Positions 35,634-54,325 of a stretch of DNA of 64,000 nt are shown in pieces. Origin of the DNA: Bradyrhizobium sp. NDS-1 (GTDB taxonomy: Bacteria; Pseudomonadota; Alphaproteobacteria; Rhizobiales; Xanthobacteraceae); contig NZ_CP136628.1 of the NCBI RefSeq assembly GCF_032918005.1, positions 496,001 through 560,000 on the forward strand, in the 5' to 3' direction. The stretch's first letter is position 1; every line of letters begins with the position of its first letter. The position numbers were made by a program, and so were the translations under genes. Under the pieces are notes generated by a model. That model ran no database searches. It was not told where the DNA came from and saw only the letters and a program-made list of their open reading frames with translations.

Positions 35634-35654
35634 GTTCGCCGCGGCGTCATACTC

Positions 35655-35733: not shown

Positions 35734-35771
35734 AAGTCAAGATCGCGCTCTGAGGGCCTCACCTCTCATCC

Positions 35772-36158
35772 TCACTCCCGCCCAAACGCCCGCTTCAGCT
35801 CGACCTTCGCCTTTTCCAGCCGCGTGCGCTGCGTTTTCGGCAAGGTCTTGCCGGCGCGGTTGATGTAGAAGGTCAGCATCGACAGTGCCGACCGATAGGC
35901 GCCGGTCTTGCGTCGTGAGCTGTGCTCGGCCGATCGCTTCAGTGACGTCGCGATCTTCTTCGGGCTGGTCAGCTTGAACACGCCCTGCTTGAGGTCGAGT
36001 GCGTCGCTCTCTTTGGTCACACGCTGCGACCAGCGCTTTGGCGTTGCGCGTTTGGCGCTCTTGCGCGTGGTCGCGCTACGCCGCGTGCCTGTCTTCCGGC
36101 GGCCGGACTTGCCTGTGCCGCTGTTTCGAGAATGTGTCGTCTTTCTGACATGAGCCAT
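35772..36158 (-). CDS. DUF3175 protein
   Basis: 128 residues. A very basic N-terminal third (Lys/Arg/Thr/Ser-rich, about 1-42) precedes the DUF3175 core: RWSQRVTKESDALDLKQGVF, SPKKIATSLKRSAEHSSRRK, then YRSALSMLTFYINRAGKTLP. The family is small, uncharacterised and often stress-associated; the basic tail suggests nucleic-acid contact. AAGGAG precedes the ATG. Its promoter is a perfect GGAAC-N16-CGTT on the minus strand, 28 bases upstream of the ATG, so it should be induced by the general stress response together with the divergent trehalose genes. Confidence 0.85.
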   Translation of the reverse strand: MAHVRKTTHSRNSGTGKSGRRKTGTRRSATTRKSAKRATPKRWSQRVTKESDALDLKQGVFKLTSPKKIATSLKRSAEHSSRRKTGAYRSALSMLTFYINRAGKTLPKTQRTRLEKAKVELKRAFGRE

Positions 36159-36185
36159 GCGTCAACTCCTTGCGGCTCCATCGGA

Positions 36186-36210
36186 AACGGGCGGTGCTGG
36201 CGGCCGTTCC
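36186..36210 (-). promoter_or_regulatory. EcfG-type general stress promoter for the DUF3175 gene
   Basis: On the minus strand GGAAC (36210-36206), 16 bases, CGTT (36189-36186): an exact match to the alphaproteobacterial EcfG/RpoE2 consensus GGAAC-N16-17-CGTT. The predicted start site lies just before the gene. Confidence 0.8.
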
Positions 36211-36214
36211 TGCG

Positions 36215-36239
36215 GGAACCCGGCCTCCCCGCGGACGTT
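36215..36239 (+). promoter_or_regulatory. EcfG-type general stress promoter for MFS-otsB
   Basis: GGAAC (36215-36219), 16 bases, CGTT (36236-36239), an exact consensus match. Its -35 box is only 4 bases from the -35 of the divergent promoter, forming a compact two-way stress promoter. Confidence 0.8.
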
Positions 36240-36340
36240 GTCGCAGGTGGCAGGCGGAATGCCGCACCCCAATGATCGGATCGACCCCGTTCACGTCCTG
36301 TGAATCGGGGCCGCTTCCATTGATCGAACGCAACAGCTCG

Positions 36341-37825: not shown

Positions 37826-37829
37826 ACTG

Positions 37830-38648
37830 ATGAAATCGGAACTTGCAGAGATGGCGTTGGATCAGAAGCGCACCATGCTGGATGACGATGCACCCGACGC
37901 GGTGCCGGTGCCGCATGCGCTGGTGCCGCATCTCGATGAGACCGCAATTCTGCTCGACATCGACGGGACCCTGCTCGACCTGATGCCGACGCCGCGTGAA
38001 GTGTGGGTGCCGCCGGGGTTGTCGGAAACGCTGAAACATCTGACCGAGCGCACCTCCGGCGCGCTGGCGCTGGTCAGCGGCCGCTCGCTCAACGACATCG
38101 ACCTGATCTTCGCACCCGACGTGTTTCGCGCCGTCGCCGGCCACGGCGCCGAGATGCGGCTGTCGGTGGACAATGAAGCCGACGCCGTGCATGCGCCACC
38201 GCTGGACAAGGAGCTGAAGCGCCGCCTGGCGGCCATTGCCAAGCTCAGCCCGGGCATTCTGCTCGAGGACAAGGGCTATTCGCTCGCCCTGCATTACCGG
38301 CTCGCGCCGCACGCGGAGAAAGCGATCTACGAATCCGTCTCGGTGATCCGTGCCGACCTGCCCAATGCGCCCATCGAGGTGCTGCCCGGCAAGTTCGTTT
38401 GCGAGATCAAGCATTCCGGATTCACCAAGGCGACCGGCGTGCGTGAACTGATGAAGCGGGAGCCGTTCAAGGGGCGGCGTCCGATCTTCATCGGCGACGA
38501 CGTCACCGATGAAACCGTGTTTGCGATCATGCCCGACATGAACGGGCTTGCCTTCTCCGTCGGCCGCCGTGCCATGGGCGTAAACGGCCATTTCGATGCG
38601 CCAAGCGACGTGCGGGCGTTCCTTGCCCGCCTGCTCGATCCGAGGTGA
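37830..38648 (+). CDS. otsB: Trehalose-6-phosphate phosphatase
   Basis: 272 residues of the HAD superfamily. Motif I is LLDIDGTLLD with the nucleophile and acid/base Asp pair; motif II is LVSGRSLNDID; motif III/IV are KFVCEIKHSGFTKATGV and FIGDDVTDETVF. The C2-type cap of OtsB lies between (GHGAEMRLS, SLALHYRLAP). It removes phosphate from trehalose-6-phosphate made by otsA. Starts 4 bases after the MFS stop, so they are co-transcribed from the EcfG-type promoter. Confidence 0.95.
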   Translation: MKSELAEMALDQKRTMLDDDAPDAVPVPHALVPHLDETAILLDIDGTLLDLMPTPREVWVPPGLSETLKHLTERTSGALALVSGRSLNDIDLIFAPDVFRAVAGHGAEMRLSVDNEADAVHAPPLDKELKRRLAAIAKLSPGILLEDKGYSLALHYRLAPHAEKAIYESVSVIRADLPNAPIEVLPGKFVCEIKHSGFTKATGVRELMKREPFKGRRPIFIGDDVTDETVFAIMPDMNGLAFSVGRRAMGVNGHFDAPSDVRAFLARLLDPR

Positions 38649-38830
38649 AACTGAGGCGGCGCCACGTCGCAGACCATGATGCTCGGGAAGCGGCGCCGTT
38701 GGGTGCCACAATGTGCTGCGCAAAAGGCCGCAATCGCTGTCTTTGCAGTGGAAAGTCCCGGTTCCCTCAAGCGAAACCAGTTCCAACGCGCGCGCCCGAT
38801 TTTGGTTTCAATTCGTTGAAACGATGGTCA

Positions 38831-38855
38831 GGAACCATATTGATGAACGGCAGTT
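38831..38855 (+). promoter_or_regulatory. EcfG-like promoter upstream of otsA
   Basis: GGAAC (38831-38835), 17 bases, GTT (38853-38855), with A instead of C ahead of GTT. It lies 35 bases before the otsA start. Weaker than the pair at 36.2 kb, but position and target make it plausible. Confidence 0.6.
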
Positions 38856-38889
38856 AAACGGGGTGGAATGAAACAGGAGGGGACGACCT

Positions 38890-40353
38890 GTGAACTTAGT
38901 CGTCGTTTCGAATCGTGTCGCGCGCGGCAAGCCTAACGAGCCCATGACGGGCGGCCTCGCGGCAGCCTTGTTGCCGGTGGTGGAACATTCCGGCGCGATC
39001 TGGGTGGGATCTTCGGGGCGGGTGCGTGACGGCCATCAGAAGGAACCGTTCGCCGAGATCGAAGCGCTGGGAACGGGCGCGATTGCGACGCTGGATCTGC
39101 CGGCGGCGCATTACGGCGGCTATTACGAGGGCTTTGCCAATTCGGCGCTGTGGCCGGCGCTGCATTCGCGCAGCGATCTGATCCGCGTCTCGCGTGAGGA
39201 TTATGTCAGCTATCGCGAGGTCAACGCCTTCATGGCGCGCGCCTTGATGCGGTTCCGAAAAACAAAGACCGCGTTCTGGGTGCAGGATTATCACTTCCTC
39301 GCGCTCGGTGCGGAACTGCGTGATCTCGGCGTCGACGATCCGATCGGCTTCTTCCTGCATACGCCGTGGCCCGTCACTGCCGTGATGCAAGGCGTGCCCA
39401 ATCATCGCGAGCTGATCACGGCGATGCTGGCCTACGATCTGCTCGGCTTCCAGACCAACGAGGATTGCCAGAACTTCCTCGCCTATGTCGGCGGAGAGCT
39501 CGGCCTCGCCGTCGAGGACGGCGTTGCGATCTCGCAGCATGGCCGCACCCGCTGCGAGGTCTTTCCGATCGGCATCGATGCGGAGAAGTTCGCAGCCTAT
39601 GCCGCGAAATCGGCATCGCACCCCGACGTGTCGCGGCTGAGGCGCAGCCTCAACGGCGAGCGGCTTGCGATCGGCGTCGACCGCCTCGATTATTCGAAAG
39701 GCCTCGTCAACCGCATCAGCGCATTCGACCGGCTGTGGACGGAGCAGCCGCAGTTCGCGCGCAGCATCTCGCTGCTTCAGATCGCCAACCCCTCGCGCGG
39801 CGCGATCGAGGCCTATGGCAATCTTCAGAACGAGGTCGCGCGCCTCGTCACCGACGTCAACGGCCGTCACGGCGAGGTGGACTGGACCCCGATCCGCTAT
39901 TTGAACAAGGGATTCAGCCAGGCCGTGCTCGCTGGTCTTTATCGGACGGCGCAAGTCGGCGTGGTGACGCCGCTGCATGACGGCATGAATCTCGTCGCCA
40001 AGGAATATGTCGCCGCGCAAAACCCGGCCGATCCCGGCGTGCTGGTGCTGTCGAAGTTCGCGGGCGCGGCCAACGAGCTCGAGACCGCCTTGCTCGTCAA
40101 TCCGCACGACATCGACGGCATGGCGCGCGCGATCGCGGTCGCGGCCGCAATGCCGCTCCCCGAGCGCAAGATGCGGTGGGATGCGATGATGAAGAAGCTG
40201 CGCGGCCATACCATCCAGCAATGGTCGGCCGACTTCGTCGCGGAACTGGAAAAGTGCCGGACCGAGAAGGCCGCGGTCGCCCCGCTCGCAGCGCAACCGC
40301 CGCAAGCCTTGCGCTGGCTGAAGTCGGCGATATCAGGCGTGCGGTTGATTTAG
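38890..40353 (+). CDS. otsA: Trehalose-6-phosphate synthase
   Basis: 487 residues from GTG 38890, with GGAGGGG upstream. GT20 family GT-B fold: N-terminal NLVVVSNRVA, the glucose-6-phosphate loop (FANSALWPALHSRSDL), WVQDYHFLALGAELR, DRLDYSKGLVNRISAF at the UDP-glucose site, and HDGMNLVAKEYVAAQ. It joins UDP-glucose and glucose-6-phosphate; otsB then dephosphorylates the product to trehalose, an osmo- and desiccation protectant. A 241-base gap with its own promoter separates it from otsB. Confidence 0.96.
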   Translation: MNLVVVSNRVARGKPNEPMTGGLAAALLPVVEHSGAIWVGSSGRVRDGHQKEPFAEIEALGTGAIATLDLPAAHYGGYYEGFANSALWPALHSRSDLIRVSREDYVSYREVNAFMARALMRFRKTKTAFWVQDYHFLALGAELRDLGVDDPIGFFLHTPWPVTAVMQGVPNHRELITAMLAYDLLGFQTNEDCQNFLAYVGGELGLAVEDGVAISQHGRTRCEVFPIGIDAEKFAAYAAKSASHPDVSRLRRSLNGERLAIGVDRLDYSKGLVNRISAFDRLWTEQPQFARSISLLQIANPSRGAIEAYGNLQNEVARLVTDVNGRHGEVDWTPIRYLNKGFSQAVLAGLYRTAQVGVVTPLHDGMNLVAKEYVAAQNPADPGVLVLSKFAGAANELETALLVNPHDIDGMARAIAVAAAMPLPERKMRWDAMMKKLRGHTIQQWSADFVAELEKCRTEKAAVAPLAAQPPQALRWLKSAISGVRLI

Positions 40354-40370
40354 AAGCTGAGCAACTTTGC

Positions 40371-40521
40371 TTTCCCTCTCCCCTTGGGAGAGGGTGGCTC
40401 GCGGCGAGACGGGTGAGGGGTATGTTTCCTCACGCGTACCTCTCGCGGTATAACTCGTGGACGCAACCCCTCATCCGTCGCGCCTGCGAGTGCCACCTTC
40501 TCCCACAAGGGGAAAAGGAAG
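40371..40521. repeat. Dispersed intergenic repeat after otsA
   Basis: Second copy of the element at 22031-22185: TTCCCTCTCCCCTTGGGAGA at the left end, GACGGGTGAGGGGTAT and ACCCCTCATCCGTCGCG inside, CTTCTCCCACAAGGGGA at the right. Fills the gap between otsA and the convergent small exported protein. Confidence 0.75.
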
Positions 40522-40527
40522 AAGGTC

Positions 40528-40869
40528 TCAATAACAGTACGACACGCCCTCCAGAACCGCACACTGCCGCTTGTTCGGCGCGTTGGGATCGTCCAGCGGC
40601 ACCACGCCCTTGCCCTGGCCGACGAACACGCCGGGCCCGACATGCACCGAGCTCTTGTTGCCGATGATGACGCTTTGATGCGGCGTCGAGCTCGAGCGCG
40701 TGCCGTCCGGCCAGATGATGGCATCGCCGGACAGCACCCCGCGGCGCCCGTCGTTGCAGCTCACATCGACGCCCTGCCGGATGCAGACCTGGGCCAGAGC
40801 CGGCACGGCGAAGGCGGGGACAAGGGCCGATAGCAGGCTCAGCACGGTGATGGTCTTGCGGATGGTCAC
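40528..40869 (-). CDS. Small exported protein of unknown function
   Basis: From GTG 40869 (VTIRKTITVLSLLSALVPAF) it is 113 residues with a signal peptide ending PALA before QVCIRQG. The mature part carries four Cys (VCIRQ, VSCND, RQCAV, YCY at the end) that could form two disulfides, and a beta-rich middle (GVLSGDAIIWPDGTRSS). An upstream extension to 40986 is not protein-like. Family not recognised; a periplasmic location is supported, role unknown. Confidence 0.7.
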   Translation of the reverse strand: MTIRKTITVLSLLSALVPAFAVPALAQVCIRQGVDVSCNDGRRGVLSGDAIIWPDGTRSSSTPHQSVIIGNKSSVHVGPGVFVGQGKGVVPLDDPNAPNKRQCAVLEGVSYCY

Positions 40870-41063
40870 GGCGTCCCCGGTCGTGGTTGGCGTCCTCACG
40901 TGAATCGTCGCGGCAAACCCGCCATGGGTTCGGCCCCCGGGCGGTTCAGGGCATGTAGGATCACAGATATTATCTCGTAAATACAACAGGTTGCGGAAAA
41001 TTCACCCGATTTTCCTTCGATCTCTTGCAAAATCATCGGCGCCCCTTCAAGAGAGGGCGCTCC

Positions 41064-41153
41064 GGAGAGATGGCCGAGTGGCTTAAGGCGCACGCTTGGA
41101 AAGCGTGTGTGCGGGAAACCGTACCGTGGGTTCGAATCCCACTCTCTCCGCCA
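41064..41153 (+). tRNA. tRNA-Ser (anticodon GGA)
   Basis: Complete type II tRNA of 90 bases including encoded CCA. The acceptor stem GGAGAGA pairs with TCTCTCC, followed by discriminator G and CCA. D-arm TGGCCGAGTGGCTTAAGGCG; anticodon stem-loop CGCTTGGAAAGCG with GGA; long variable arm; T-arm GTGGGTTCGAATCCCAC. It reads UCC and UCU. It marks the left border of the accessory island, though no duplicate of its 3' end was found in the window. Confidence 0.97.
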
Positions 41154-41321
41154 GTTTCGTTTCCTGAACGCCCTCTCCGGCCCAGTCGAAGCAGCTCGTC
41201 GACGCTCATTTCCCGCGTTTTTTAGCGCTGAACCGTACTTTGCCGGTCCGGTGTGCACGCGCCCCCCTTCTCCGCTACCCTGCTTTTCTCCAAACCTCTG
41301 TACTTTCTGAGCGGGTAACGG

Positions 41322-41483
41322 ATGACAAAAGCCATTGAAAATCAAAAGATTTCAATCGTCGGAAAAACAGAAGGGTTCGTTTCTTACTTGGCTGCCAAGA
41401 TGACGACTTCTGGCGGAACTTATGTGAGTACGGTCGCGCGAGACGCTTTGCACACGTTCGATGATGTAAACCTGAGACAATAA
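41322..41483 (+). CDS. Small unknown protein, 53 residues
   Basis: MTKAIENQKISIVGKTEGFV begins and ALHTFDDVNLRQ ends this short frame just inside the island. It has a beta-strand then helices, reminiscent of small DNA-binding or antitoxin proteins, but no family is recognised. AT-richer than the flanking chromosome. No strong ribosome site; moderate confidence that it is a gene. Confidence 0.45.
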   Translation: MTKAIENQKISIVGKTEGFVSYLAAKMTTSGGTYVSTVARDALHTFDDVNLRQ

Positions 41484-41564
41484 CCGCCTCAAGCGACGTG
41501 GAATGGTTGCTCCTGCTCCAGCGGTAGCTGCCCGGCCCTTTCGGGTAGAAGCCTCGCCGCCCCA

Positions 41565-41760
41565 TCATGGGTCGGGGATGCGAGCGACTGCCTTCGCGAT
41601 CTTCCTGGCCTCTTCAGGTTTCTGTGCCCGACCGACTACGTCTGTAAGTCGTCTCGGGCGATGACTGTCGCGATCGCGATGCCGTTGGCGTCCTCCACGA
41701 ACGGATCGGCCTCTGGTCGTTCCACACTCCGGAGGAAAACGCCGGGCTTGGGCCGTCTTC
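41565..41760 (-). pseudogene. Frameshifted small gene remnant
   Basis: On the minus strand one frame reads GRRPKPGVFLRSVERPEADP, then FVEDANGIAIATVIARDDLQ before a stop at about 41650. The next frame continues DVVGRAQKPEEARKIAKAV and ARIPDP to TGA at 41567-41565. The two halves join into one plausible protein if a single base is shifted, and no start codon is present. I read it as a decayed gene left by an earlier insertion. Family unknown. The rest of the 41484-41895 gap holds nothing else. Confidence 0.5.
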
Positions 41761-41895
41761 CATTGCTGAACAAAACTAGAACATGAATCAAGCGTGTGGT
41801 AGCGTGTGCCGCGCCAAAATACGAATCAGGGGTTGCACGGAACCTACCGGAACCTAATGAACGGGAACGGGCTAACTAGCTATGGGGGCCAAGGA

Positions 41896-42969
41896 ATGGC
41901 CGACTTTTACGAACTCGACTTCTTACCTGTTCATACGTCTAAGAGTGGGGACTGTATCACCATTCGCTATTCGATCGGAGGTGCTTCGCCGGTTCTGCAC
42001 GTTGTGGACGGCGGATACACGAGCACAGCGCCTGACCTCGTGGCCCACATTAAAAAGTGGCACAGCGTTACGCACATTGACCATGTGGTTGTCACACACC
42101 CGGACAAGGACCATGCCGAGGGCCTGGCTCCGATACTGGAAGGTTATTCCATTGGCACGCTCTGGATGTTGCGGCCGTGGATTTATGCGGACCAGCTCAT
42201 CCAGCATTTTCCTCGCATGCAGTCGGCAGACACGCTGCGTGAGCGGCTGCGCGATGACTACCCGTACATTGCGACACTCGAAGAGATCGCACTCCGGCGG
42301 GGAATCAATATTCAGGAGCCGTTTCAGGGTCGCCAGATCGGCGCATTCACCGTGCTCGCTCCCTCGCCGACGCGGTATGGACAGCTGATCTTGCGGTCTG
42401 ACCGGACCCCGCAGCTCGCGCAGGGTATGGGGGGCCTGTTGGCCGCTCTGGTCGTTCCGATGAAAGCAGCGGTACGCATGCTGCGGGACAGTTGGGGATC
42501 TGAACGTTTCTCCAGCGAAGAAACGAGCGTCGAAAATGAAATGAGCGTCGTGCAGTTCGCCAACATTGCCGGCGACAACATCGTGCTCACGGGTGACGCG
42601 GGTCGGTCCGGCATGGCCGAGGCCGCAGACTTTGCGCCAAACGCAGGCCTGTATCTCCCCGGCGTGAAGCAATTTCAGGTGCCGCATCACGGCGGCCGTC
42701 GAAATCTTTCTACCGAAATCTGTGACCGGTGGCTCGGGCCAAGGCTTCCGTCACTTTTGCCCGAAGGCAGCGAGCTCTTTCACGCGCTTATTAGCTCGGC
42801 GAAGGAAGACACAGACCATCCGCGTAATGCCGTCATCCGGGCCATGCGGCACCGCGGGGCGTTTGTCGCGACGACCGAAGACTCCGCGTTCCGCGCTCAC
42901 AAGAACTCACCTCAGCCATGGGCTGGGGCACTGACGAATTACCCCTACCCCAATGAGCAGGAGGAGTAG
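41896..42969 (+). CDS. ComEC-type metallo-beta-lactamase-fold hydrolase
   Basis: Start ATG 41896 (MADFYELDFLPVHTSKSGDC) with AAGGA upstream gives 357 residues; the frame back to 41806 lacks protein character. The metal motif is HxDxDH as in the ComEC/Rec2 nuclease-like domain: THPDKDHAEG with His68, Asp70, Asp72, His73. NIVLTGDAGRSG and FQVPHHGGRRNL supply the further Asp and His ligands. Unlike ComEC it has no membrane channel; the next gene, two bases downstream, encodes a separate membrane protein. First gene of a four-gene cluster proposed here as a defence locus. Substrate unknown; nucleic acid or nucleotide is possible. Confidence 0.8.
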   Translation: MADFYELDFLPVHTSKSGDCITIRYSIGGASPVLHVVDGGYTSTAPDLVAHIKKWHSVTHIDHVVVTHPDKDHAEGLAPILEGYSIGTLWMLRPWIYADQLIQHFPRMQSADTLRERLRDDYPYIATLEEIALRRGINIQEPFQGRQIGAFTVLAPSPTRYGQLILRSDRTPQLAQGMGGLLAALVVPMKAAVRMLRDSWGSERFSSEETSVENEMSVVQFANIAGDNIVLTGDAGRSGMAEAADFAPNAGLYLPGVKQFQVPHHGGRRNLSTEICDRWLGPRLPSLLPEGSELFHALISSAKEDTDHPRNAVIRAMRHRGAFVATTEDSAFRAHKNSPQPWAGALTNYPYPNEQEE

Positions 42970-42971
42970 CG

Positions 42972-43727
42972 GTGTTCAAATTCCTCGATGCGTACACCCT
43001 CCGCGCACGGCTGTTTCCCGCCATCCTGGGCGCGGCACCGGCACTGGCCGCGCTCGCCTTGCTGGTGTCGTGGCAACACGTCCACATGTCCAACGTGATT
43101 GCGAGCATCACGCTCTTCGTTTTGGTGTTCGCGCTGGCTGACTTCGCCCGCAAACTCGGTGTAGCTATCGAGCCGAAGATTTACGCAGAAATGGGCGGCA
43201 AGCCATCGGTCACCATGTTTCGCCGGTCGGATCACACGATTGAACAAGCCACCAAAGAACGCTATCGGACCTTCATTGCCGGCAAGATTAACCAGCTGGT
43301 GCCGTCGTCGCGGCAGGAGGCGGCCAATCAAGCTGTGGCTGATGAGTTCTATGAGGCGTGCGGTACCTGGCTCCGCGCGCACACGCGTGATGCCAAGAAA
43401 TTCCCGTTGGTGTTCGGCGAAAACGTCGGCTACGGCTTTCGCCGTAACCAGTTCGGCCTGAAGTGGGTTGCGCTCGGGCTGAACCTGATCGTAGTCCTGA
43501 TCTGCGCCGGGCTCCTTTGGTATCGCGTGCCGCTGGACATGGGGGCTGACCTCACGAACCGCACGACGCTCGTGTTCATCGTAGCAGCGATCCACGCCGC
43601 CTATTTCGCATTTGCCGTCACCAAGGAAAGCGTCAAGACCGCAGCCCGGAAGTACGGCCGTGAACTAATCTTGTCCACGGAAGCGCTGATCTCTCCGTTG
43701 CCGGCGCCGCGTAAAGAGGGAAAGTAA
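42972..43727 (+). CDS. Four-helix membrane protein paired with the ComEC-type hydrolase
   Basis: 251 residues from GTG 42972, two bases after the preceding stop. Two N-terminal TM helices (about 16-35 and 40-60) and two C-terminal ones (about 164-184 and 193-214) flank a cytoplasmic domain of about 100 residues. That domain holds EPKIYAEMGGKPSVTMFRRS and KKFPLVFGENVGYGFRRNQF. The last string resembles an uncharacterised bacterial family I recall near metallo-hydrolases and phage-defence genes; unverified. Its stop overlaps the next start by one base (TAATG), so translation is coupled on both sides. Confidence 0.65.
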   Translation: MFKFLDAYTLRARLFPAILGAAPALAALALLVSWQHVHMSNVIASITLFVLVFALADFARKLGVAIEPKIYAEMGGKPSVTMFRRSDHTIEQATKERYRTFIAGKINQLVPSSRQEAANQAVADEFYEACGTWLRAHTRDAKKFPLVFGENVGYGFRRNQFGLKWVALGLNLIVVLICAGLLWYRVPLDMGADLTNRTTLVFIVAAIHAAYFAFAVTKESVKTAARKYGRELILSTEALISPLPAPRKEGK

Positions 43728-44413
43728 TGGTCGACCAAACAGCAGCGGAAGCCAAGGAGAAGTACATCAAGGTCATGGGTGAAGAGCTCGGCACGCAGTA
43801 TGCCGAACTTTGGCAGGAACTCGCTCAACTGAACATCAGGTGGTTGGAGTTCATCGAGCTCTACGGAACGAAGAAGAGTCGAATCGAATTGATGAACCGA
43901 TCTACCGGCCACTTCTTCCGGATGGTGCAAGACTGCCTATGGGAAGGATTGATGCTGCACATAGCACGATTGACTGACCGACCGGTATCTTTCGGTCGGA
44001 CAAATTTGACGCTGCATAACCTTCCTGCGCTGATCCCTGACGTGGCGTTGAAGAGGAAGCTAGAAGCGCTGTGCTTGGATGCAACGAACAAGACGAAATT
44101 TGCTCGGGATTGGCGCAACCGCCACATAGCTCATCGTGATCTTGACCTAGCTCTCGGCACTACGGCAAAGCCGTTGCCCGCCGTTGAGATTCGGCAGGTG
44201 AACGATGCTCTGGGTTGCTTTACCGAGATATTGAACAGCATCGCTGGGCCTTATCTGCATTCCACGACATCGTTCAAGCATGGTGTACGCCTGCACGGAG
44301 CGATCGAATTGCTGTATCTCTTGGACGATGGGCACGCGCTGCAAGCCGAGCGCAGGAGGCGGTTGGATGCCGGCGACTACAGCCCGGAGCTATCTGAGGC
44401 GAACGACGTCTAG
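43727..44413 (+). CDS. AbiU2-like HEPN-domain protein
   Basis: 228 residues, all helical. The sequence fits the HEPN AbiU2-like group: RSTGHFFRMVQDCLWEGLML, then a central DWRNRHIAHRDLDL with the R-N-x4-H arrangement (Arg130/Asn131/His136) characteristic of HEPN ribonucleases. AbiU2 was described as part of an abortive-infection phage-resistance locus in Lactococcus. Here it would be an RNase toxin or RNA-binding effector. Coupled by a one-base overlap to the membrane protein upstream. The HEPN motif is clear; AbiU2 grouping is by recall. Confidence 0.65.
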   Translation: MVDQTAAEAKEKYIKVMGEELGTQYAELWQELAQLNIRWLEFIELYGTKKSRIELMNRSTGHFFRMVQDCLWEGLMLHIARLTDRPVSFGRTNLTLHNLPALIPDVALKRKLEALCLDATNKTKFARDWRNRHIAHRDLDLALGTTAKPLPAVEIRQVNDALGCFTEILNSIAGPYLHSTTSFKHGVRLHGAIELLYLLDDGHALQAERRRRLDAGDYSPELSEANDV

Positions 44414-44455
44414 CGGCAAGTTGCTTTAGCGGCTTATCACACAATTGGGGTCGGC

Positions 44456-45994
44456 ATGGCGAAGAACATTGTTATCTTCTCGGATGGCACTGGGCAGGAC
44501 GGCGGAGCTCGTCCCGAACAGCGGATAAGCAACATCTATAAGATGTACCGCATATCGCGCGACCATGCTGACACCGGCATCGATCCGTCAAAGCAGGTTG
44601 TATTCTACGATGCGGGTCTCGGAACCGACATAGGTGCAACTGCGCTGACTGCCCCGGTGCGCTTCGTTCAAAAGATGCTTGGCTCTGTCACTGGTGCCGG
44701 TATCAAGCGCAACATCGCAGACTCCTATGAATTCATTATCAACCACTACGAAGACGGCGACAGGATCTTTCTGTTTGGCTTCAGCCGAGGCGCTTACACA
44801 GTGCGCAGCCTCGCGAATCTGCTGATGTTCTGCGGTGTCCCAACCAAAACGCCCAGCGATCCATTGATGCGGTACAGAAAGGCTGCAAAGGATATCGCTT
44901 GGGAGGCGGTAGATGCGGTGCTTGAACATGGCGCCGGGCACCCGAGAGCCGACTTTGAGGATGAACGAGTTGAATTAGCCAAGCGCTTCCAACTCAAATA
45001 CGGTTCGGGCGATGGGTCCGACTCGAACGTCGCTCCCTATTTCATCGGCGTGTTCGACACCGTCGCGGCGTTGGGAGCGAATGGATTACGCTATTTCATC
45101 ATTCAGGCTGCACTCGCCGCAGGAGTTGGAGTAGTCGCATTCATTGCCGGATTCATTCCTGCTGTAATGCTGGCCGCTCTTTGCACTTGGTTGCTCGGCA
45201 CGAATTTCATGCTAATTGGCTTCGTCGCTCAAGTCGCCATCGTGGGAGCTGCCCTCGCTCTCTTCTGGTACTGGCAGAACAAGGCTGACATCAAGACTAT
45301 CACTGACTACCCGAAGCCTGGCGAGTCGCGATCCCATAAGGCAGTTTGGAAAGGTGCCAATTTTGATCGTCTCCTGAGCCGCCATGTCGCTTTTGCTCGC
45401 TCAGCGAACGCGATAGACGAAACCCGGAAGGACTTCGACCGCGTACCGTGGGGCGGCAGCGACGAGGGCGCTCCGCATTTCCCGGGTCATGAGCGGCTTC
45501 TCCAATGGTGGTTCGCGGGCAACCACTCGGACATCGGAGGCTCCTATCCGGAACCGGAGTCCCGCCTCTCGGACGTCGCGTTGGAATGGATGTGCGGCGA
45601 GGCTGTCGCCGTTCCAAACGGATTGCTAACTGGTCCAATTTTCGTTGGCGGCAGGAAGATGCCGAATACAGGGGACACCGGTCCCGCATTAAATATCTTT
45701 CCTGCGGCCGACGGGGTCCAGCACTGCGAGGTCGCAGGTATGCGAGACACGCTCGATTCGCAGGCCGCAAAGCTTCCAAAGTGGCCTTGGCTTCAGAAGT
45801 TAGTCAGCAGTCAGAATTGGGAAGCGAAAACTCGCGACATTCAGCCGGAGGCCAAAGTTCACCCTGCGGTTCGGGAGCGTTTCAATCTCTCAGAGATCAT
45901 TCAGTGCGCCTCCGGCAGCGGTCCTTATCGTCCTGCTGCACTTGCAAATCACGTTGAATTCAAACCCTATTATTCGGGTCCCGCAAAGGGTTGA
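44456..45994 (+). CDS. DUF2235 alpha/beta-hydrolase with internal membrane helices
   Basis: 512 residues. The N-terminus MAKNIVIFSDGTGQDGG and the nucleophile elbow LFGFSRGAYTVRSLA (Ser110, GxSxG) define DUF2235, the Tle1-type phospholipase/esterase fold. A likely catalytic Asp is in IGVFDTVAALG (about 203) and a His in WWFAGNHSDIGGSYPEPE (about 365). Three hydrophobic stretches (about 213-275) are inserted in the middle, so the enzyme is membrane-attached. T6SS effectors of this family are known, but no T6SS gene is present; a membrane-damaging effector of the same cluster is the better guess. 42 bases after the HEPN gene. Confidence 0.75.
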   Translation: MAKNIVIFSDGTGQDGGARPEQRISNIYKMYRISRDHADTGIDPSKQVVFYDAGLGTDIGATALTAPVRFVQKMLGSVTGAGIKRNIADSYEFIINHYEDGDRIFLFGFSRGAYTVRSLANLLMFCGVPTKTPSDPLMRYRKAAKDIAWEAVDAVLEHGAGHPRADFEDERVELAKRFQLKYGSGDGSDSNVAPYFIGVFDTVAALGANGLRYFIIQAALAAGVGVVAFIAGFIPAVMLAALCTWLLGTNFMLIGFVAQVAIVGAALALFWYWQNKADIKTITDYPKPGESRSHKAVWKGANFDRLLSRHVAFARSANAIDETRKDFDRVPWGGSDEGAPHFPGHERLLQWWFAGNHSDIGGSYPEPESRLSDVALEWMCGEAVAVPNGLLTGPIFVGGRKMPNTGDTGPALNIFPAADGVQHCEVAGMRDTLDSQAAKLPKWPWLQKLVSSQNWEAKTRDIQPEAKVHPAVRERFNLSEIIQCASGSGPYRPAALANHVEFKPYYSGPAKG

Positions 45995-46438
45995 ATTGCG
46001 CTTAAAGAGATTCGAATGGTCGTTGTCTAGATTGTACGTTTCGATGATCACGCCTCTTGTCGTTGGAAGAGGGCGCCGTGACCAAATTCAATCGCATATT
46101 TCCGGGTATGCTTCTCTGCGGTCGGAGATACGTGGTGCTCGACCCGGACGATTTTCGCGCGATTGGGATGCCAATCCGCGGCAGCGCCGGAGCGAAGTAA
46201 TCTCGCGAGAGATTGCTGGGTTGGCCAATCAAATCTCCTGATTTTATGATTGCGGGGGAGACTGGTTCGCGATGAATGCTGATGAATTGGGGCGAGCTCG
46301 GGAGGCCGACCCACCCCACTGTACTTAGCAAGCGCACAAGCTCCGCGTGGTAGCCAACGTATTATCTTACAAAAAGCTTTTCGCGGTGAGCCGAGGCCCG
46401 TGACTATCACCTCTGCGAGCAATCTTGCTCTCCGCACT
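45995..46438. other. Interval with no secure gene
   Basis: A 40-codon plus-strand frame (GTG 46078 to TAA 46200, VTKFNRIFPGMLLCGRRYVV) has a GGAAGAGGG upstream and may be a small gene or a fragment, but no family is recognised. Otherwise nothing is seen. Convergent ends of the DUF2235 and recombinase clusters meet here. Confidence 0.35.
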
Positions 46439-46858
46439 TCACGAACGGAAGTGAGTTCGTTGCGCGCCCCAGTCCGCAGGGAATGGCTTCAACACCGACT
46501 TCAGCTCAAGGGTCTTGCTTTGTCGACCATCCAAGATAGTCTGGACTAAATCCGGAGCGAGCAAGGTAAGGCGAAGCACACGGCAGACGTACGACTCGTT
46601 GACTGCTTCACGTTTTGAAAGTTCTGCCGCGGAAGAATAGCATCCAGTCTCGATGAGCCGGCGCCATCGATGCGCTTTCGCGAGAGCGGTAATTAGGCTG
46701 TTGCTTGGTCGTGATCGAGGAGCGGTCCAGACCTCCACGCCGGCAGGGACTACAATTTGCTTTCTCCCGCCGCTCTGCCGGAAATCGACCGGGATGCTTA
46801 CAACCAACTCACGTCCATCACGGCTGAGTCGAACATTCTGTTTGGGATTGGTGGTCAC
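46439..46858 (-). CDS. HTH protein of the recombinase cassette
   Basis: 139 residues. The C-terminal half holds a helix-turn-helix of the ParB/KorB-like type (SSAAELSKREAVNESYVCRV, then LRLTLLAPDLVQTILDG). The N-terminal half is beta-rich and carries basic residues. Its ATG overlaps the recombinase stop by 4 bases (ATGA). Such a gene commonly ends this cassette in alphaproteobacteria; it may help target or regulate recombination. Function inferred from context. Confidence 0.7.
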   Translation of the reverse strand: MTTNPKQNVRLSRDGRELVVSIPVDFRQSGGRKQIVVPAGVEVWTAPRSRPSNSLITALAKAHRWRRLIETGCYSSAAELSKREAVNESYVCRVLRLTLLAPDLVQTILDGRQSKTLELKSVLKPFPADWGAQRTHFRS

Positions 46859-48171
46859 GCGGCCACCTCCGCGATCGTCCCTTTGCCCTTCAGATCCGCG
46901 ATCAGCGAAGCGAAGCCGTCCACCCGAAGGTGCATATCAACCTTTGCAGAGGCGACGACTACCTTAGCCGCAATGAGCTGCAGGATGCGGGATTGCTCGG
47001 CGGGGAATAACTCGCTCCAGACTTGGTCAAAGTCGATAAGGGCATCGCGGACCCATCGCTCGGTGGTCCCGGACACGTGGGTGCGCATCTTCTTCCAGGT
47101 CGCCACTATCAGCTCAGGAGAGGAGAGTACGCGCCGGACCTGGTCGACGACCATCTCCTCAATCTCCCCTGCGGGGACGCGAAATGCCGCGCTCGACGCC
47201 GCCGCGCCTTTGAGGGTCTGCTGGCTGACGTAGTAGCGGTACAGTTTGCCTCGACGCCGAGTATGGGTGGGAGACATTGCCACGCCAGCGGAATCAAAAA
47301 TGAGCCCTTTGAGCAGGGCGGGGGTCTGCGCCCGGTGCTTTGCGGCTCGCTTACGAGGGCTTTCCTGCAGGATGGAGTGCACCTGGTCCCAAAGCTTGCG
47401 TTCGATGATCGCATGGTGCTCGCCAGGGTACGCGGTGCCCTTATGCACCGCGTCTCCAATGTAAGTTTGGTTGTTGAGCATCTTGTAAATCACGCCCTTG
47501 TCGATGGCTTGGCCATAGCGGTTTCGGACGTCTTTTTGCTTGAGCTCTCGGGCGAGAAGGGTGGCTGACCCCAGGGTCACGAACCTGCGGAAGATCCAAC
47601 GGACGGTCTCCGCGTCCTGGTCATTGATCACCAACTTGCGGTTTTTGACCTCGTAGCCGAATGGGGCCCAACCGCCCATCCACATGCCCTTCTTGCGAGA
47701 AGCCGCGAACTTGTCGCGGATGCGCTCGCCGGTGACCTCGCGCTCGAACTGGGCAAAGGACAGCAAGATGTTGAGTGTGAGCCGGCCCATCGAAGTTGTG
47801 GTGTTGAAGGCCTGGGTGACCGAGACAAAGGTGACGGTGCGTCGGTCAAACGCCTCCACCAGCTTCGCAAAGTCCATCAATGACCGTGACAGCCGATCGA
47901 TCTTGTAGACCACGACGATGTCGACCTTGCCCGCCTCGGTGTCCGCCAGCAGGCGCTTGAGGGCAGGGCGCTCCAGCGTGCCGCCGGAGAACCCGCCGTC
48001 GTCATAGTGATCAGGAACGAGAAGCCAGCCTTCCTGTTTGTGGCTTGCCACATAAGCCTCGCACGCCTCTCGTTGGGCCTCCAGGGAGTTGAACTCCATG
48101 TCCAGGCCTTCCTCGCTGGACTTGCGGGTGTAAACCGCACACCGCAGCTTGCGGACAACCGGCTTGCTCAT
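46855..48171 (-). CDS. Large serine recombinase
   Basis: 438 residues from ATG 48171 (MSKPVVRKLRCAVYTRKSSE). The resolvase catalytic domain has the nucleophile Ser18 in YTRKSSEEG and the Arg-rich active site (KIDRLSRSLMDFAKL, GRLTLNILLSFAQFEREVTG ERIRDK). A recombinase domain with a zinc-ribbon-type region lacking clear Cys pairs follows (GWAPFGYEV, TPALLKGLIF). It cuts and rejoins DNA through a phosphoserine link and is the likely mover of the surrounding element. Overlaps both neighbours by 4 bases, so the cassette is one translational unit. Confidence 0.92.
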   Translation of the reverse strand: MSKPVVRKLRCAVYTRKSSEEGLDMEFNSLEAQREACEAYVASHKQEGWLLVPDHYDDGGFSGGTLERPALKRLLADTEAGKVDIVVVYKIDRLSRSLMDFAKLVEAFDRRTVTFVSVTQAFNTTTSMGRLTLNILLSFAQFEREVTGERIRDKFAASRKKGMWMGGWAPFGYEVKNRKLVINDQDAETVRWIFRRFVTLGSATLLARELKQKDVRNRYGQAIDKGVIYKMLNNQTYIGDAVHKGTAYPGEHHAIIERKLWDQVHSILQESPRKRAAKHRAQTPALLKGLIFDSAGVAMSPTHTRRRGKLYRYYVSQQTLKGAAASSAAFRVPAGEIEEMVVDQVRRVLSSPELIVATWKKMRTHVSGTTERWVRDALIDFDQVWSELFPAEQSRILQLIAAKVVVASAKVDMHLRVDGFASLIADLKGKGTIAEVAA

Positions 48172-48617
48172 ACCGACGCCCGCTGGCTCTTCAGGCCAAA
48201 GAAGATCAGGCCATTCCACCGCGTGCCCGTAATGGCTCTGGCGACCGCAGAGAGCGATTTGTACGGCCGGCCTTGGTACTCGAAGTCGGCGTCGCGGACC
48301 GTCACCCGGTGCTCGACACCCTTCCACTCCCGAATGAGGCGGGTGCCGCTGACGGGGCGGTCCAAATTTTTGTGCCGAATGCGCTTGCTGCCCTTGGTCG
48401 GCAGGTCGGCCGCCAAGGCTTCCAGCCGCCGGACGGTGTCGGTGGACAGTCCACCATACGCCAGCTCCTGGATACGGTACGCCAGCCGGCTTTCGAGAAA
48501 GCGGCGGTTGTAGGGAGGCGGCTCGGAGCCGAACAGCTCGCGCCAGCGCGCCTTCAGCGTGCCCACCGGGGCACTCTTAAGAGCCGAAATCTGCGCCAAA
48601 ACGCCGCCGCTAGCCAT
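48168..48617 (-). CDS. DUF2924 protein
   Basis: 149 residues from ATG 48617 (MASGGVLAQISALKSAPVGT). The family core is clear: LKARWRELFGSEPPPYNRRF, LESRLAYRIQELAYGGLS, TRLIREWKGVEHRVTV and YQGRPYKSLSAVARAITGTR. DUF2924 genes nearly always sit directly upstream of such recombinases in alphaproteobacteria; they are probably accessory DNA-binding factors. Stop overlaps the recombinase start by 4 bases. Confidence 0.9.
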   Translation of the reverse strand: MASGGVLAQISALKSAPVGTLKARWRELFGSEPPPYNRRFLESRLAYRIQELAYGGLSTDTVRRLEALAADLPTKGSKRIRHKNLDRPVSGTRLIREWKGVEHRVTVRDADFEYQGRPYKSLSAVARAITGTRWNGLIFFGLKSQRASV

Positions 48618-48810
48618 CTGCCGTTCTCCCTTCCAAAGGCGCGGCATGTCCGCTCTGGTCAGGCGAGATGTCGAGTGAAACATCTCCCGTGTGGTCGGAA
48701 AATCCGCTTGCCTTTCGGGCCTGGATCCGGCTGAGGCCGAGCGCCAAAAGCTCGGCGATTTCGGCAATTCGGTCGTCGGCGGAAGGAATGTGTGGAGATC
48801 CTGTGATCAT
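48610..48810 (-). CDS. Small first gene of the recombinase cassette
   Basis: 66 residues (MITGSPHIPSADDRIAEIAE; then ALGLSRIQARKAS and DVSLDISPDQSGHA). The pattern of a basic helix followed by SLD...DQSGHA is typical of the small protein that precedes DUF2924 in these cassettes. It overlaps the DUF2924 gene by 8 bases. Function unknown. Confidence 0.65.
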   Translation of the reverse strand: MITGSPHIPSADDRIAEIAELLALGLSRIQARKASGFSDHTGDVSLDISPDQSGHAAPLEGRTADG

Positions 48811-48908
48811 CCACGCTGTTTGCAGATGATTCGGGAGGTTGTCCGGCGGTCAACCTCCCCCGTTCTGGGTTAGGTTCACAGAAACCGATTCAGGGTCTGC
48901 GGACGAAC

Positions 48909-49841
48909 ATGTCTAACCATCACTTTGCGCCAGGACCTAAAGCAGAAATCGAGCCGAAAGGCCCTCAACATGCGTTTGAAGGAGCGGTAGCTTTACTGGC
49001 GCCCTTTAAGCGCAGGCTGGAGGCGCATGCGCCAGCGGATGCACGAGAGGCAATTGCGGCACAGGATCCCCGCCTTTTGGCTTCTGCGGAAGTCCATAGC
49101 TTGGCGGAGGACCTCAATAGTGCGCTGTATCGGGCTCGTCAGGCACCAAGGGTCAAGGACGTCGTCGCCGAACTCGGCCGAGCCCGAGATCTTCTTCGCG
49201 AAGCCAATTCGGCGATTGTCTCTCTCGGGGGATGGTCCCGCTTCCATCTTCGAACGCCTTCCGAAGTTTATGGCGATGGTGTCGAGCCTCGCTGGTTGCC
49301 TTCCTACGAAGACGGAAATGCCGGTGAATTCGTTGGACTAGCCTCGCGCATAGCCGACCAGATGGACGAGGTCGTCGGCAAGCTGCAAAAGGTGTTCGGC
49401 GACGGTCAGATCGCTGACCGCGGCGGCGCTCAAAATTATGAAGACCGTTTCCTCGGCCCCGTGAAGAACAGGTTCATCCGAGAGGCGTTCGACGTGTTCG
49501 ATGCCTATCACCCGGGAAGCGCGAGCTCGTCGGACGGCTCGCCGTTTTTTTGCTTCGTACACAAGGTCTTTGAGTTTGCGACCGGCGAGCATGACGAAGA
49601 TAAGATGGCGCTCGGTTATAAGCTGCGAGAGCTGATTAGCGCGCTGCACGGTTATAGCCGTGCCAAGGCGGAGTATTGGAGCATTGAGCTGATGCTCGAT
49701 CCCGGCGACCAAAGCGACCCAACCAGGGACGATCTCGAAAGGCGCCAAAGGAAAGCGAAGAGGCAGATGGAGCTGCACGAAAGGAAGCTCGTCCCAGCCC
49801 TCGGTCAAAAAGGCCTACCTCCTCAAAAAACCGGCAAGTAG
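48909..49841 (+). CDS. Unknown island protein, 310 residues
   Basis: No family recognised. The protein is hydrophilic and mostly helical, with two long helical blocks (about 45-105 and 135-165) and a middle WSRFHLRTPSEVYGDGVEPR stretch; no signal peptide, membrane segment or catalytic motif stands out. The last 60 residues are strongly charged (RDDLERRQRKAKRQMELHER), suggesting a coiled coil or nucleic-acid contact. It stands between the divergent recombinase cassette and the primase-helicase gene, 67 bases upstream of the latter, so it may share its operon. Confidence 0.7.
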   Translation: MSNHHFAPGPKAEIEPKGPQHAFEGAVALLAPFKRRLEAHAPADAREAIAAQDPRLLASAEVHSLAEDLNSALYRARQAPRVKDVVAELGRARDLLREANSAIVSLGGWSRFHLRTPSEVYGDGVEPRWLPSYEDGNAGEFVGLASRIADQMDEVVGKLQKVFGDGQIADRGGAQNYEDRFLGPVKNRFIREAFDVFDAYHPGSASSSDGSPFFCFVHKVFEFATGEHDEDKMALGYKLRELISALHGYSRAKAEYWSIELMLDPGDQSDPTRDDLERRQRKAKRQMELHERKLVPALGQKGLPPQKTGK

Positions 49842-49908
49842 GCCGCGTGCTAAAATCATCCGGTTAACGGCCTTCTTCGACCTCGTTTTCGAGGTGGAAG
49901 GAAGCACG

Positions 49909-52449
49909 ATGAATAGCCGGGAACGGAAGCGGGCCGGGAAACCTGGCGGCATGAAGGCCGCGGCGCTGGCGTACGCTGCCAAGGGTTGGCCGGTCTTCCC
50001 GTGTCATCCCGAGACTAAGCAGCCGCTCGTCAAGGGAGACGCTGATCCGGCCACCGGCAAAGCCATCCCAGGGTCTGGGGGTCTCAAGAAGGCGACCAAA
50101 GACGAGGCGCAGATCGAAGCTTGGTGGCGAAAATATCCTAACGCGATGATCGGGGTGCCGACTGGGGCGCCCATTGCCGCCTTCGTGGTCGATATCGACG
50201 CCGGAACGGATAGCAAGACAGGCGAGGTTTATGACGCGGCGGAAATCCTCGGCCGCCTGGAAGCGACGCTTGGCTGCCCACTGCCGCTGACACGGGTCTG
50301 CCGCACCCCGCGCGGCGGTTTGCATCTGTACTTTCGATTGCCCGAGGGCGGCGGGGCGATGCCGCGCAATCGTGCTGGCATCTTAAAACGCATCGATGTG
50401 AGAGGGGATGGCGGATATGTTATCGTCCCTCCTTCACTTCGGTCAGACGGCGCCGGCTATATTTGGCAGGGCGAGGAGGATGCTGCCGAGGCCTGCGCTT
50501 CCGACGAACTCCTGCGCTTCTTGGCGGCAACAGCTCGTCGCGATAGTTTGCCCCAGACCAGCGCCAGGGCATCGTCAAAAGAGGCCTACGGTCTGAAGGC
50601 CCTTGCCGATGAAATCCGCGCGTTGCGCGGCGCGGTGGATGGGACCCGCAATGACACGCTGTTTCATAGCTCCATAAAGCTGGCGCAACTTGTAGCCTCG
50701 GGCAATCTCGACGAAATAGTCGCCCGCTCTTCCCTTGAGGCGGTCGCGGGGCAGTGGCCAAACTTTCAAAAGTCAAAAACAACGATCGCCTCCGGCTTTG
50801 CCCGCGGTCTCGCGGAGCCGAGGTCCGTTCCGATGCGCGCAGCCAAGAGCCGTCTTGCTGAGCCGGTTGCCCACGTCGCGCCGACTGCACCAAAAATCGC
50901 CGCCTCTATCCTTGAGCGCCTTGGATTGGATGAGGATCATCAAATCCAGCTCGACAGAGAACTGGCTCAGTGTCCCCTGACGGACCTGGGTAATGCCGAA
51001 CGCTTTGCCCGCCGGTTGCAGGATCGGCTCATGGCGGTGCCGACGCGCGGCTGGTTTCAGTGGGACGGCTGCCGCTGGACGATGAACGGTGCGGAGGACT
51101 CGGCGCGAATTGCGGCTCAGTACGTCGCGCGATCCATCCAGCGCGAGGCGGATGCGCTTTGCGGGAGCGATGAAGATGCAGTCGTTGAAGTTCGATCTCC
51201 CGGCGCCAAATGCGAGCGCGAAATCAGGCTGTCCGACAAGTTGAGGGATTGGGGCAGAGAAACAGAAAACGATCGGCATTTGACCGCATTGCGCAAGCAG
51301 GCCGCACCGATGATGGCGGTCGACCAGGCGCGGCTCGATGCTGATCCCATGAAGATCAACACAAAGAACGGGACTCTTAAGGTCAATCGGAACTGCGCAG
51401 ACGAGGATCCGATCAGCTTTTATCCTCATGATCCCGCTGATCTGATCACGAAGGTCATCGATGCCGAATACGAGGCAGGCGCGACGTGCCCGGTCTACGA
51501 CGCTTTCCTGAAGAAGGTTCAGCCCTCATCTAAAGTGCAGCGGTTCCTGCACCAATGGGCTGGACTCGGGCTGACCGGCGACACGTCAGAACAGAAACTG
51601 CTGTTCTTCTGGGGAAAGGGACGCAACGGTAAGACGACGTTGGTGGAGGCGTGGGCGTCGATTTATGGCGACTACGCGTGCTCGCTTGCTGTTGAAACCT
51701 TCATGGACAATGGCAGGGGACGGAGTGGAGGCCAGGCGACGCCGGATCTCGCGCTCCTGCCGGGGATCAGGTTCGTTCATACTGACGAGCCGGCGCGCAA
51801 CGCGCGTTTGTCGGAAAGCCATGTGAAGCTGCTGACGGGTGGCGATACCATCCAAGCCCGCGAGCTGAACAAGGGCTTTTTCAGCTTCAAGCCGCAGTTC
51901 AAGTTGACGATGTCGGGCAACTACCGGCCGAAGGTGGACGGTGGTGAGGCGTCTCAGGGGACGTGGCGCCGTCTGATCATGGTTCGGTGGGCCATTACGG
52001 TTCCCGAGCAAGATGTTGATAGGCAGCTGTCGACGAAGCTCAAGGCCGAGGCTTCGGGCATCTTAAACCGATTGCTCGATGGGCTGCGCGATTGGATAGA
52101 CCGCGGCCTTCTTGTCCCCGATGAGATTAAGGAGACGACGGAGGAGTACCGCAGTGATAGCGACGTTCTCGGTCGCTTCCTCCAAGAATGCACTATGCGG
52201 GCGGAGGGGCAGCGTCTGTCCAATGCGGAGCTCCATAACCTGTTTGTAGTTTGGAGCAGGAGGAACGGCGAGCGCCCGTGGACGAAGAAGAGCCTCACCA
52301 GTGCGATGAAGGAGCGAGACTACGAGCAATCCCGAGGGGAGGAGCGCTATTGGAAAGAGATCGTGGCCACCAAGTCAGTCGGTGACTTCGCGGTTGGCGC
52401 CTCGGCTGAGGACGATTTGGAGGTAGATGAGCCAGAAAACGACAGTTGA
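49909..52449 (+). CDS. PrimPol-D5 primase-helicase (P4/plasmid replication type)
   Basis: 846 residues from ATG 49909 with GGAAGGA upstream. N-terminal primase-polymerase domain (about 12-200): AALAYAAKGWPVFPCHPETK, catalytic FVVDIDAGTDS, and RGGLHLYFRLPEGG with the conserved His. A D5_N region follows (about 450-540), then an SF3 helicase: Walker A FFWGKGRNGKTTLVEAW (about 565-581), Walker B RFVHTDEPA (about 620), and sensor LTMSGNYRP. It primes and unwinds DNA for an autonomous replicon such as a P4-like satellite or integrated plasmid. Directly followed by an iteron-like repeat cluster. Confidence 0.93.
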   Translation: MNSRERKRAGKPGGMKAAALAYAAKGWPVFPCHPETKQPLVKGDADPATGKAIPGSGGLKKATKDEAQIEAWWRKYPNAMIGVPTGAPIAAFVVDIDAGTDSKTGEVYDAAEILGRLEATLGCPLPLTRVCRTPRGGLHLYFRLPEGGGAMPRNRAGILKRIDVRGDGGYVIVPPSLRSDGAGYIWQGEEDAAEACASDELLRFLAATARRDSLPQTSARASSKEAYGLKALADEIRALRGAVDGTRNDTLFHSSIKLAQLVASGNLDEIVARSSLEAVAGQWPNFQKSKTTIASGFARGLAEPRSVPMRAAKSRLAEPVAHVAPTAPKIAASILERLGLDEDHQIQLDRELAQCPLTDLGNAERFARRLQDRLMAVPTRGWFQWDGCRWTMNGAEDSARIAAQYVARSIQREADALCGSDEDAVVEVRSPGAKCEREIRLSDKLRDWGRETENDRHLTALRKQAAPMMAVDQARLDADPMKINTKNGTLKVNRNCADEDPISFYPHDPADLITKVIDAEYEAGATCPVYDAFLKKVQPSSKVQRFLHQWAGLGLTGDTSEQKLLFFWGKGRNGKTTLVEAWASIYGDYACSLAVETFMDNGRGRSGGQATPDLALLPGIRFVHTDEPARNARLSESHVKLLTGGDTIQARELNKGFFSFKPQFKLTMSGNYRPKVDGGEASQGTWRRLIMVRWAITVPEQDVDRQLSTKLKAEASGILNRLLDGLRDWIDRGLLVPDEIKETTEEYRSDSDVLGRFLQECTMRAEGQRLSNAELHNLFVVWSRRNGERPWTKKSLTSAMKERDYEQSRGEERYWKEIVATKSVGDFAVGASAEDDLEVDEPENDS

Positions 52450-54323: not shown

Positions 54324-54325
54324 AA

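Follow-up and report, generated by a model that had tools for sequence, protein, structure and literature searches.

Four adjacent genes of Bradyrhizobium sp. NDS-1, here called g1 to g4, lie on a genomic island in a stretch of 64,000 nucleotides that we refer to as the window (contig NZ_CP136628.1, positions 496,001 to 560,000 of the forward strand; genome G000). We propose that they form a mobile anti-phage operon of the abortive-infection type, composed of a conserved g1-g2 core and two exchangeable effectors. Judging by association, we give this reading a probability of about 0.65. The island-borne operon is probably immune in function and built on a widespread, largely unnamed pair of a metallo-β-lactamase (MBL) enzyme and a membrane protein. 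The evidence was obtained by computation and consists of the families of the encoded proteins, their intact catalytic residues, the pairing of g1 with g2, the linkage of g3 and g4 relatives to MBL-membrane genes and to immune systems, and the location on an island. The genes are as follows.

41896..42969, + strand: g1, ComEC-like MBL-fold hydrolase of 357 amino acids (aa), PADLOC PDC-M48B family, without a channel domain
42972..43727, + strand: g2, four-helix membrane protein of 251 aa, partner of MBL enzymes
43727..44413, + strand: g3, HEPN_AbiU2 protein of 228 aa, predicted ribonuclease
44456..45994, + strand: g4, Tle1-fold serine hydrolase (PF09994/DUF2235) of 512 aa with an inserted transmembrane (TM) hairpin

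All four genes are on the + strand between 41896 and 45994, and recomputing their junctions (2, -1 and 42 bases) gave the same coordinates and strand as an earlier, sequence-only reading of this DNA. The overlap of g2 and g3 is TAATG, with the start of g3 inside the stop codon of g2. A scan for promoters and terminators returned counts no higher than in shuffled sequence.

Families and catalytic residues of the four proteins

The g1 protein matched the PADLOC model PDLC04676 (PDC-M48B) over 357 of 357 positions (429.5 bits, 1.9e-129) and Pfam PF12706 at 0.00029, under the family cut-off. Its metal residues, H68-x-D70-x-D72-H73, D234 and H264-H265, are invariant in all six aligned sequences, the window's included, and no TM-like stretch was found in it. 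This agrees with the ComEC-like HxDxDH site without a channel that the sequence-only reading had described. When compared with solved structures, g1 best matched MBL domains found in competence proteins. In ComEC, the MBL domain acts on DNA as it is taken up. The active site of g1 is ComEC-like, but the protein lacks the channel part, and a role in competence is disfavoured.

The g2 protein contains four TM-like stretches and has a confident AlphaFold2 model (mean predicted local distance difference test score 89.2), as expected from its earlier description as a separate four-helix membrane protein. It had no significant family in Pfam, NCBIfam or PADLOC, the best matches being DUF2207_C at 0.013 (under cut-off) and a PADLOC 2TM effector at 0.023.

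With a score of 87.8 bits, g3 is well over the PF18734 (HEPN_AbiU2) cut-off of 26.8. The R130, N131 and H136 of its R-N-x4-H motif are invariant in a set of ten full-length g3-type HEPN proteins that includes the window's own, with partial matches in genomes G022, G014 and G035 left outside the set; its assignment as an AbiU2-like HEPN protein is thus confirmed. A sequence search of the PDB with g3 gave no match at E up to 1.

The g4 protein scored 209.9 bits with PF09994 (cut-off 27), and all 32 rows compared have S110 (in GFSRG), D201 and H357. Two TM-like stretches begin at residues 224 and 252 and form an inserted hairpin. The earlier description of a DUF2235 hydrolase with a GxSxG motif and internal membrane helices was correct, although Tle1-fold hydrolase with a Ser-Asp-His triad describes it better. 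The fold assignment comes from a comparison other than the Foldseek search, which returned nothing below E 0.001 (top row 4o5p, E 1.0e-3, TM-score 0.26). No match at E up to 1 was obtained in a PDB sequence search or with PADLOC models.

For a role in defence, we infer a scheme in which g1 and g2 would touch one another as a pair at the membrane and would sense or process a substrate linked to infection. This substrate would probably be a nucleic acid or nucleotide because the g1 active site is ComEC-like. On infection, g3 and g4 would be released to act, the HEPN protein cleaving RNA and the membrane-anchored g4 attacking host phospholipids, and their output would be growth stop or death of the infected cell.

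Conservation and partners of the g1-g2 pair

We searched 242 Bradyrhizobium genomes, scoring the best 6-12 first-look candidates per genome, and obtained profile matches to g2 in at least 31 genomes, g1 in at least 38 and g3 in at least 13 (10 full-length). Five g1 or g2 matches were left out as weak or fragmentary: G274 (contig-end pieces), G139:C13 (63 bits), G165 (a 120-aa piece), and G142 and G017:3197207 (degenerate g2). The 41 genus loci examined comprise 27 with g1 and g2, 10 with g1 only, 3 with g2 only and 1, at a contig end, with neither intact. Two of the 27 (L082, L084) have g1 and g2 kilobases apart on opposite strands.

Beyond the genus, species genomes were scanned with the g2 alignment, and the best 80 of 212 relatives, all reached via one peptide pattern, were analysed. 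Ten, which overlap with the genus set, carry the title Bradyrhizobium; the other 70 do not. One identical g2 occurs in L130-L132 and another in L153-L154. The 80 loci come from several proteobacterial classes, Thermodesulfobacteriota, Cyanobacteriota, Planctomycetota, Verrucomicrobiota, Acidobacteriota, Bacteroidota, Nitrospinota and Caldifarciminota. The same-strand neighbour of g2 within 300 bases was g1 in 42 loci (2 of which also had a PDLC04673-type MBL), Cap2_3 in 22, a PDLC04673-type MBL alone in 7, a 6A-type MBL in 2 and none of these in 7. For the 70 loci outside Bradyrhizobium the corresponding counts were 34, 21, 7, 2 and 6. Where g1 and g2 adjoin, g1 directly precedes g2, and the distance from the g1 stop to the estimated g2 start was -3 to 20 bases in 42 of 42 loci. 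Because the junction is this constant, the adjacency is more than chance. These data support by association the idea that g1 and g2 are a functional pair. Their order is conserved across phyla, but that of all four genes is not.

The spacing between Cap2_3 and g2 was also short (30 bases or less in 21 of 22 loci), and a g2-family gene occupies the third place in many 6A-MBL-type operons (L142, L144, L149, L150, L155, L157-L160 and others). NCBIfam models placed the 6A-MBL enzyme and cap2_3 far over cut-off in the two loci tested (L121, L142); the other 6A-MBL-type loci were assigned by similarity. Three g2-family proteins tested had no NCBIfam name and no significant PADLOC model. In L121 the gene order is 6A-MBL enzyme, Cap2_3, g1, g2. 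A quick tree of the 80 g2 proteins, from which rows under 180 aa were excluded and in which 6 rows have no context label, required at least 18 changes of partner type against a mean of 27.1 for shuffled labels, and at least 10 changes for g1 were forced by well-supported branches. The partners appear to be partly inherited, because the labels are more clustered than when shuffled. The repeated changes nevertheless indicate that g2 has been re-recruited repeatedly by different MBL systems.

Within 5.5 kb of the 41 genus loci we found Tle-type hydrolases in 12, TIR proteins in 6, and HEPN proteins, PDLC04673-type MBLs and Cap2_3-type proteins in 4 each. Two of the Tle matches are weak (L209 and L213, about 1e-19) and three are in or beside 6A-MBL-type operons (L082, L083, L213). 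Chance would place a Tle gene at about 1.3 of the 41 loci at most, an estimate that takes 19 first-look candidates per genome (the most among those listed) and ignores the clustering of mobile genes on islands. In G192 the Tle gene overlaps g1 by 4 bases and no g2 was found there; in G241 the order is HEPN-g1-g2-TIR. A stop codon lies inside the TIR match of G017 (L035). A protein of about 490 aa with a signal-like N-terminus is encoded near the MBL-g2 loci L032 (10358-11839), L035, L085, L086, L030 and L031, directly preceding the Tle-type gene in the first four; two copies tested had no Pfam match.

These neighbourhoods bear on a different explanation, namely that g1 and g2 are a complete two-gene immune system in which g2 is a membrane-damaging effector, and that g3 and g4 are independent defence cargo of the island. 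Most g1-g2 pairs are without HEPN or Tle genes, and g4 is set off by 42 bases with no overlap. The gene after g1 in G218, G173 and G174 encodes a different protein with 3-4 TM-like stretches (L205:8891-9583, L206:9066-9707, L209:6918-7574), in one case weakly like Csx27 of CRISPR type VI-B (E 7e-5), as if the MBL needed only some membrane partner. Against it, g3 starts in the stop codon of g2 and recurs by g1-g2 genes in G031, G034 (a g2 remnant) and G241, and 12 and 6 of the 41 loci have Tle and TIR genes, respectively, near the pair. We consider this explanation rather unlikely, and the operon with exchangeable effectors is preferred.

Several observations weigh against an operon with these effectors. 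The exact g1-g2-g3-g4 order was absent from the other 40 genus loci and from the 80 wider loci, and the closest locus, in G031, has g1-g2-g3 with the Tle gene about 13.5 kb distant. Of the 41 genus loci, 37 have no HEPN gene and 29 no Tle gene within 5.5 kb; in the wider 80, HEPN was found in 1 and Tle in 6. The 42-base gap ahead of g4 allows separate expression. A fold search with g2, in which a MotA/ExbB/TolQ-like stator fold was considered, gave nothing significant. Some copies are decayed: a stop codon interrupts g2 of G241 (L085), one CdnE gene upstream of a g3 relative is split over two frames (G163, L220), and one g4 relative, that of G024, is in two pieces. Finally, 11 of the 22 listed g4 relatives had no recognised immune neighbour, most of their neighbours being unscanned. 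A fixed four-gene system was rejected, as only the g1-g2 pair is widely conserved in the 41 genus and 80 wider loci, and the combination of all four has so far been seen at this locus alone. Of the defence module put forward by the sequence-only reading, the immune association is retained, by association, and the fixed set is not, g3 and g4 being optional.

Immune contexts of the g3 and g4 relatives

Among the ten full-length HEPN proteins, four are encoded beside g1-g2 genes (G000, G031, G034 with its g2 remnant followed by g3, and G241) and four follow cyclases (CD-NTases) of the type found in the cyclic oligonucleotide-based antiphage signalling system (CBASS). Three of the latter (G142, G163, G104) come after CapV and CdnE, 7 bases past the CdnE stop, as an extra third gene of CapV-CdnE-HEPN_AbiU2 CBASS operons (L219:4323-6474, L220:3962-6112, L221:8122-10273). 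In G200 a single gene separates the HEPN gene from a CD-NTase-like gene upstream of it. The HEPN genes of G208 and G278 have neither context.

At least 22 other g4 relatives were found that are full or nearly full length (54-79% identity, with G024 counted despite its break); partial matches such as those of G200, G217 and G170 are outside the 22 listed. Ten of the 22 are at CBASS, Pycsar, 6A-MBL, caspase-helicase or Mokosh genes. The relative overlaps a SMODS cyclase in G058, and G002 has the same gene cluster. It is part of a cyclase-E1E2-JAB-Tle operon in G024, is separated from a cyclase by one small gene in G231, and stands in a Pycsar-type set of PycC, TIR effector, Tle and NACHT in G165. 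Others are with a caspase-helicase (G117, and G107 by gene cluster), beside MkoA of Mokosh (G022), or divergent from 6A-MBL-type operons (G223, G102). Outside these ten, G169 has a cyclase 2 kb off on the other strand. Tle1-type hydrolases close to g4 look like the effectors of a type II CBASS, of a cyclase-Tle pair and of a Pycsar-NACHT locus (L115:7862-12876, L101:6301-9314, L104:4270-11803). We found no paper treating CBASS and DUF2235 together in open-licence PubMed Central, a search that does not cover all print. Most of the papers listed there for DUF2235 in connection with phage and defence deal with type VI secretion. Upstream of the Tle-type gene by MkoA, a 66-aa MBL-like gene start that is probably a remnant was seen by eye (L105:9619-9819).

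That g4 works within the cell that makes it is best argued from the presence of its relatives in CBASS- and Pycsar-type operons, whose effectors are active in the host cell. The fold and Pfam name of g4 would suit a type VI secretion effector whose neighbours are immunity or delivery genes. The single baseplate marker TssK (PF05936) was found in 0 of 10 genomes, namely the complete G000 and nine carrying g1-, g2- or g4-type genes, while E. coli alone among 14 controls gave a match, and no type VI gene occurred among the neighbour proteins scanned. Because no type VI marker was found, secretion of g4 as a toxin is unlikely; the type VI operon was rejected on the TssK result, and we give it almost no credence.

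HEPN proteins are common as toxins, and g1-g4 sit on an integrated island of 44 kb, which would fit a selfish module for island stabilisation or stress, toxin-antitoxin-like and without a part in phage defence. Two observations argue against it: the genes touching g3 (g2 and g4) are not antitoxin-like, and relatives of g2, g3 and g4 occur beside CBASS, Pycsar, 6A-MBL, Ssp, Hma and restriction genes. We regard such a module as improbable. The occurrence of g3 and g4 relatives in CBASS, Pycsar and 6A-MBL loci supports, by association, the earlier suggestion that both are effectors, as the anti-phage operon proposes.

Other defence genes were seen near MBL or MBL-g2 loci: HmaB/HmaC beside or near L028, SspB/SspC beside or near L124, the Shango genes SngB in L094 and SngC in L080, type III restriction genes near L095 and L165, a type I restriction enzyme near L179 and HEC-05 near L183. 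Scanning neighbours at L096 and L148 gave nothing recognised. This list is an illustration and not an enrichment test, because the neighbours were picked as informative-looking and others gave nothing.

A broader and more tentative reading, to which we give slightly less than even odds, is that g2 represents a new unnamed family, for membrane signalling or pore formation, that serves as the common output of g1-, 6A-MBL- and PDLC04673-type MBLs. The MBL and g2 would then be a general immune switch with HEPN, TIR and membrane Tle1-type lipases as alternative killers, these lipases being a new effector class across CBASS, Pycsar, 6A-MBL and MBL-g2 loci. If so, one membrane partner would link MBL defences that are catalogued separately (PDC-M48B types and 6A-MBL), and the immune function of MBL enzymes would become testable via a two-gene core. 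Lipases of a class known chiefly as toxins injected by type VI secretion would act as self-directed effectors of nucleotide-signalling immunity, and AbiU2-type HEPN proteins would be placed in CapV-CdnE CBASS operons.

Related systems and the surrounding island

The system closest to the core is 6A-MBL (enzyme NF058524, cap2_3 NF058523), which likewise has an MBL-fold enzyme. Many of its loci have a g2-family gene in third place, at times followed by a gene for a Tle-type hydrolase (L130-L132, L149). The g2-type third gene is an observation made here and not, as far as seen, part of a published definition. The g1 protein, however, scored 18 bits with NF058524 against a cut-off of 220, compared with 395 and 443 for two members tested, and window positions 35001-55000 contain no match to E2-E1-JAB (Cap2_3). 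Plain membership of 6A-MBL was rejected on these grounds. The phage defence candidate PDC-M48 of PADLOC needs both PDC-M48A and PDC-M48B. As noted above, g1 is a full-length PDC-M48B, but none of the eight window proteins scanned, g2 included, matched PDC-M48A at E up to 1. One PDC-M48A model (PDLC04672, 125 positions) was found in 0 of 10 genomes, with no control positive either. 6A-MBL was not found by name in open-licence PubMed Central papers, which are a part of what is in print, nor was PDC-M48 in those of them that were listed, and nothing related to a ComEC-type MBL with a transmembrane protein in an anti-phage context was found there by title.

CBASS or Pycsar cyclases accompany some of the close relatives of g3 and g4 in other Bradyrhizobium genomes, whereas no cyclase (CD-NTase) was among the eight window proteins scanned, g1-g4 and four others, the rest of the island being unscanned; plain CBASS membership was rejected. 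Likewise, those eight proteins included no reverse transcriptase such as accompanies the associated MBL and TM proteins in defence-associated reverse transcriptase systems. g1 had a distant match to RTasMBL (42.7 bits), and one g2 relative matched RTasTM at only 0.042. The Tle1 phospholipase effectors of type VI secretion share fold and catalytic residues with g4 but differ in its TM hairpin and in the absence of TssK from its genome. AbiU2 proteins share with g3 the Pfam family and the R-N-x4-H motif. In PMC3710099, the operons listed for AbiU2, a member of the HEPN superfamily, include a Sel1-repeat gene and restriction-modification genes, in contrast to the MBL and membrane protein that partner the HEPN protein here. 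A term search of PMC10097602 found no MBL. The sequence-only reading knew of no named system with this set. The exact set was indeed unseen elsewhere, but its MBL is already listed as PDC-M48B and the g2 family also supplies the third gene of many 6A-MBL-type operons.

The island begins at a tRNA gene, as the sequence-only reading had noted; ARAGORN and a comparison with the same-species genome G132, which lacks the island, agree on this.

41064..41153, + strand: tRNA-Ser(GGA), identified by ARAGORN, insertion site of the island

The left junction is 41154/41155, at the end of the tRNA. G132 matches the window with 98% identity up to base 41154, and its sequence past the junction realigns from G000:581430 onward; the island is therefore 44,275 bp long, and the window covers its left 22.8 kb. 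A degenerate copy of the 3' end of the tRNA is present at the right junction, and GC content is 58.8% in the island against 65.1% to its left. Downstream of g4, a large serine recombinase on the opposite strand (window 46855-48327) is perhaps the integrase of the island, and a small gene (46439-46858) overlaps the end of the recombinase gene. A P4-type primase/helicase with Prim-Pol and D5_N parts (window 49894-52449) suggests that the island may replicate as an element. The island also encodes what looks from its sequence like a hybrid histidine kinase, containing PAS and response-regulator parts, at window positions 54326-56326.

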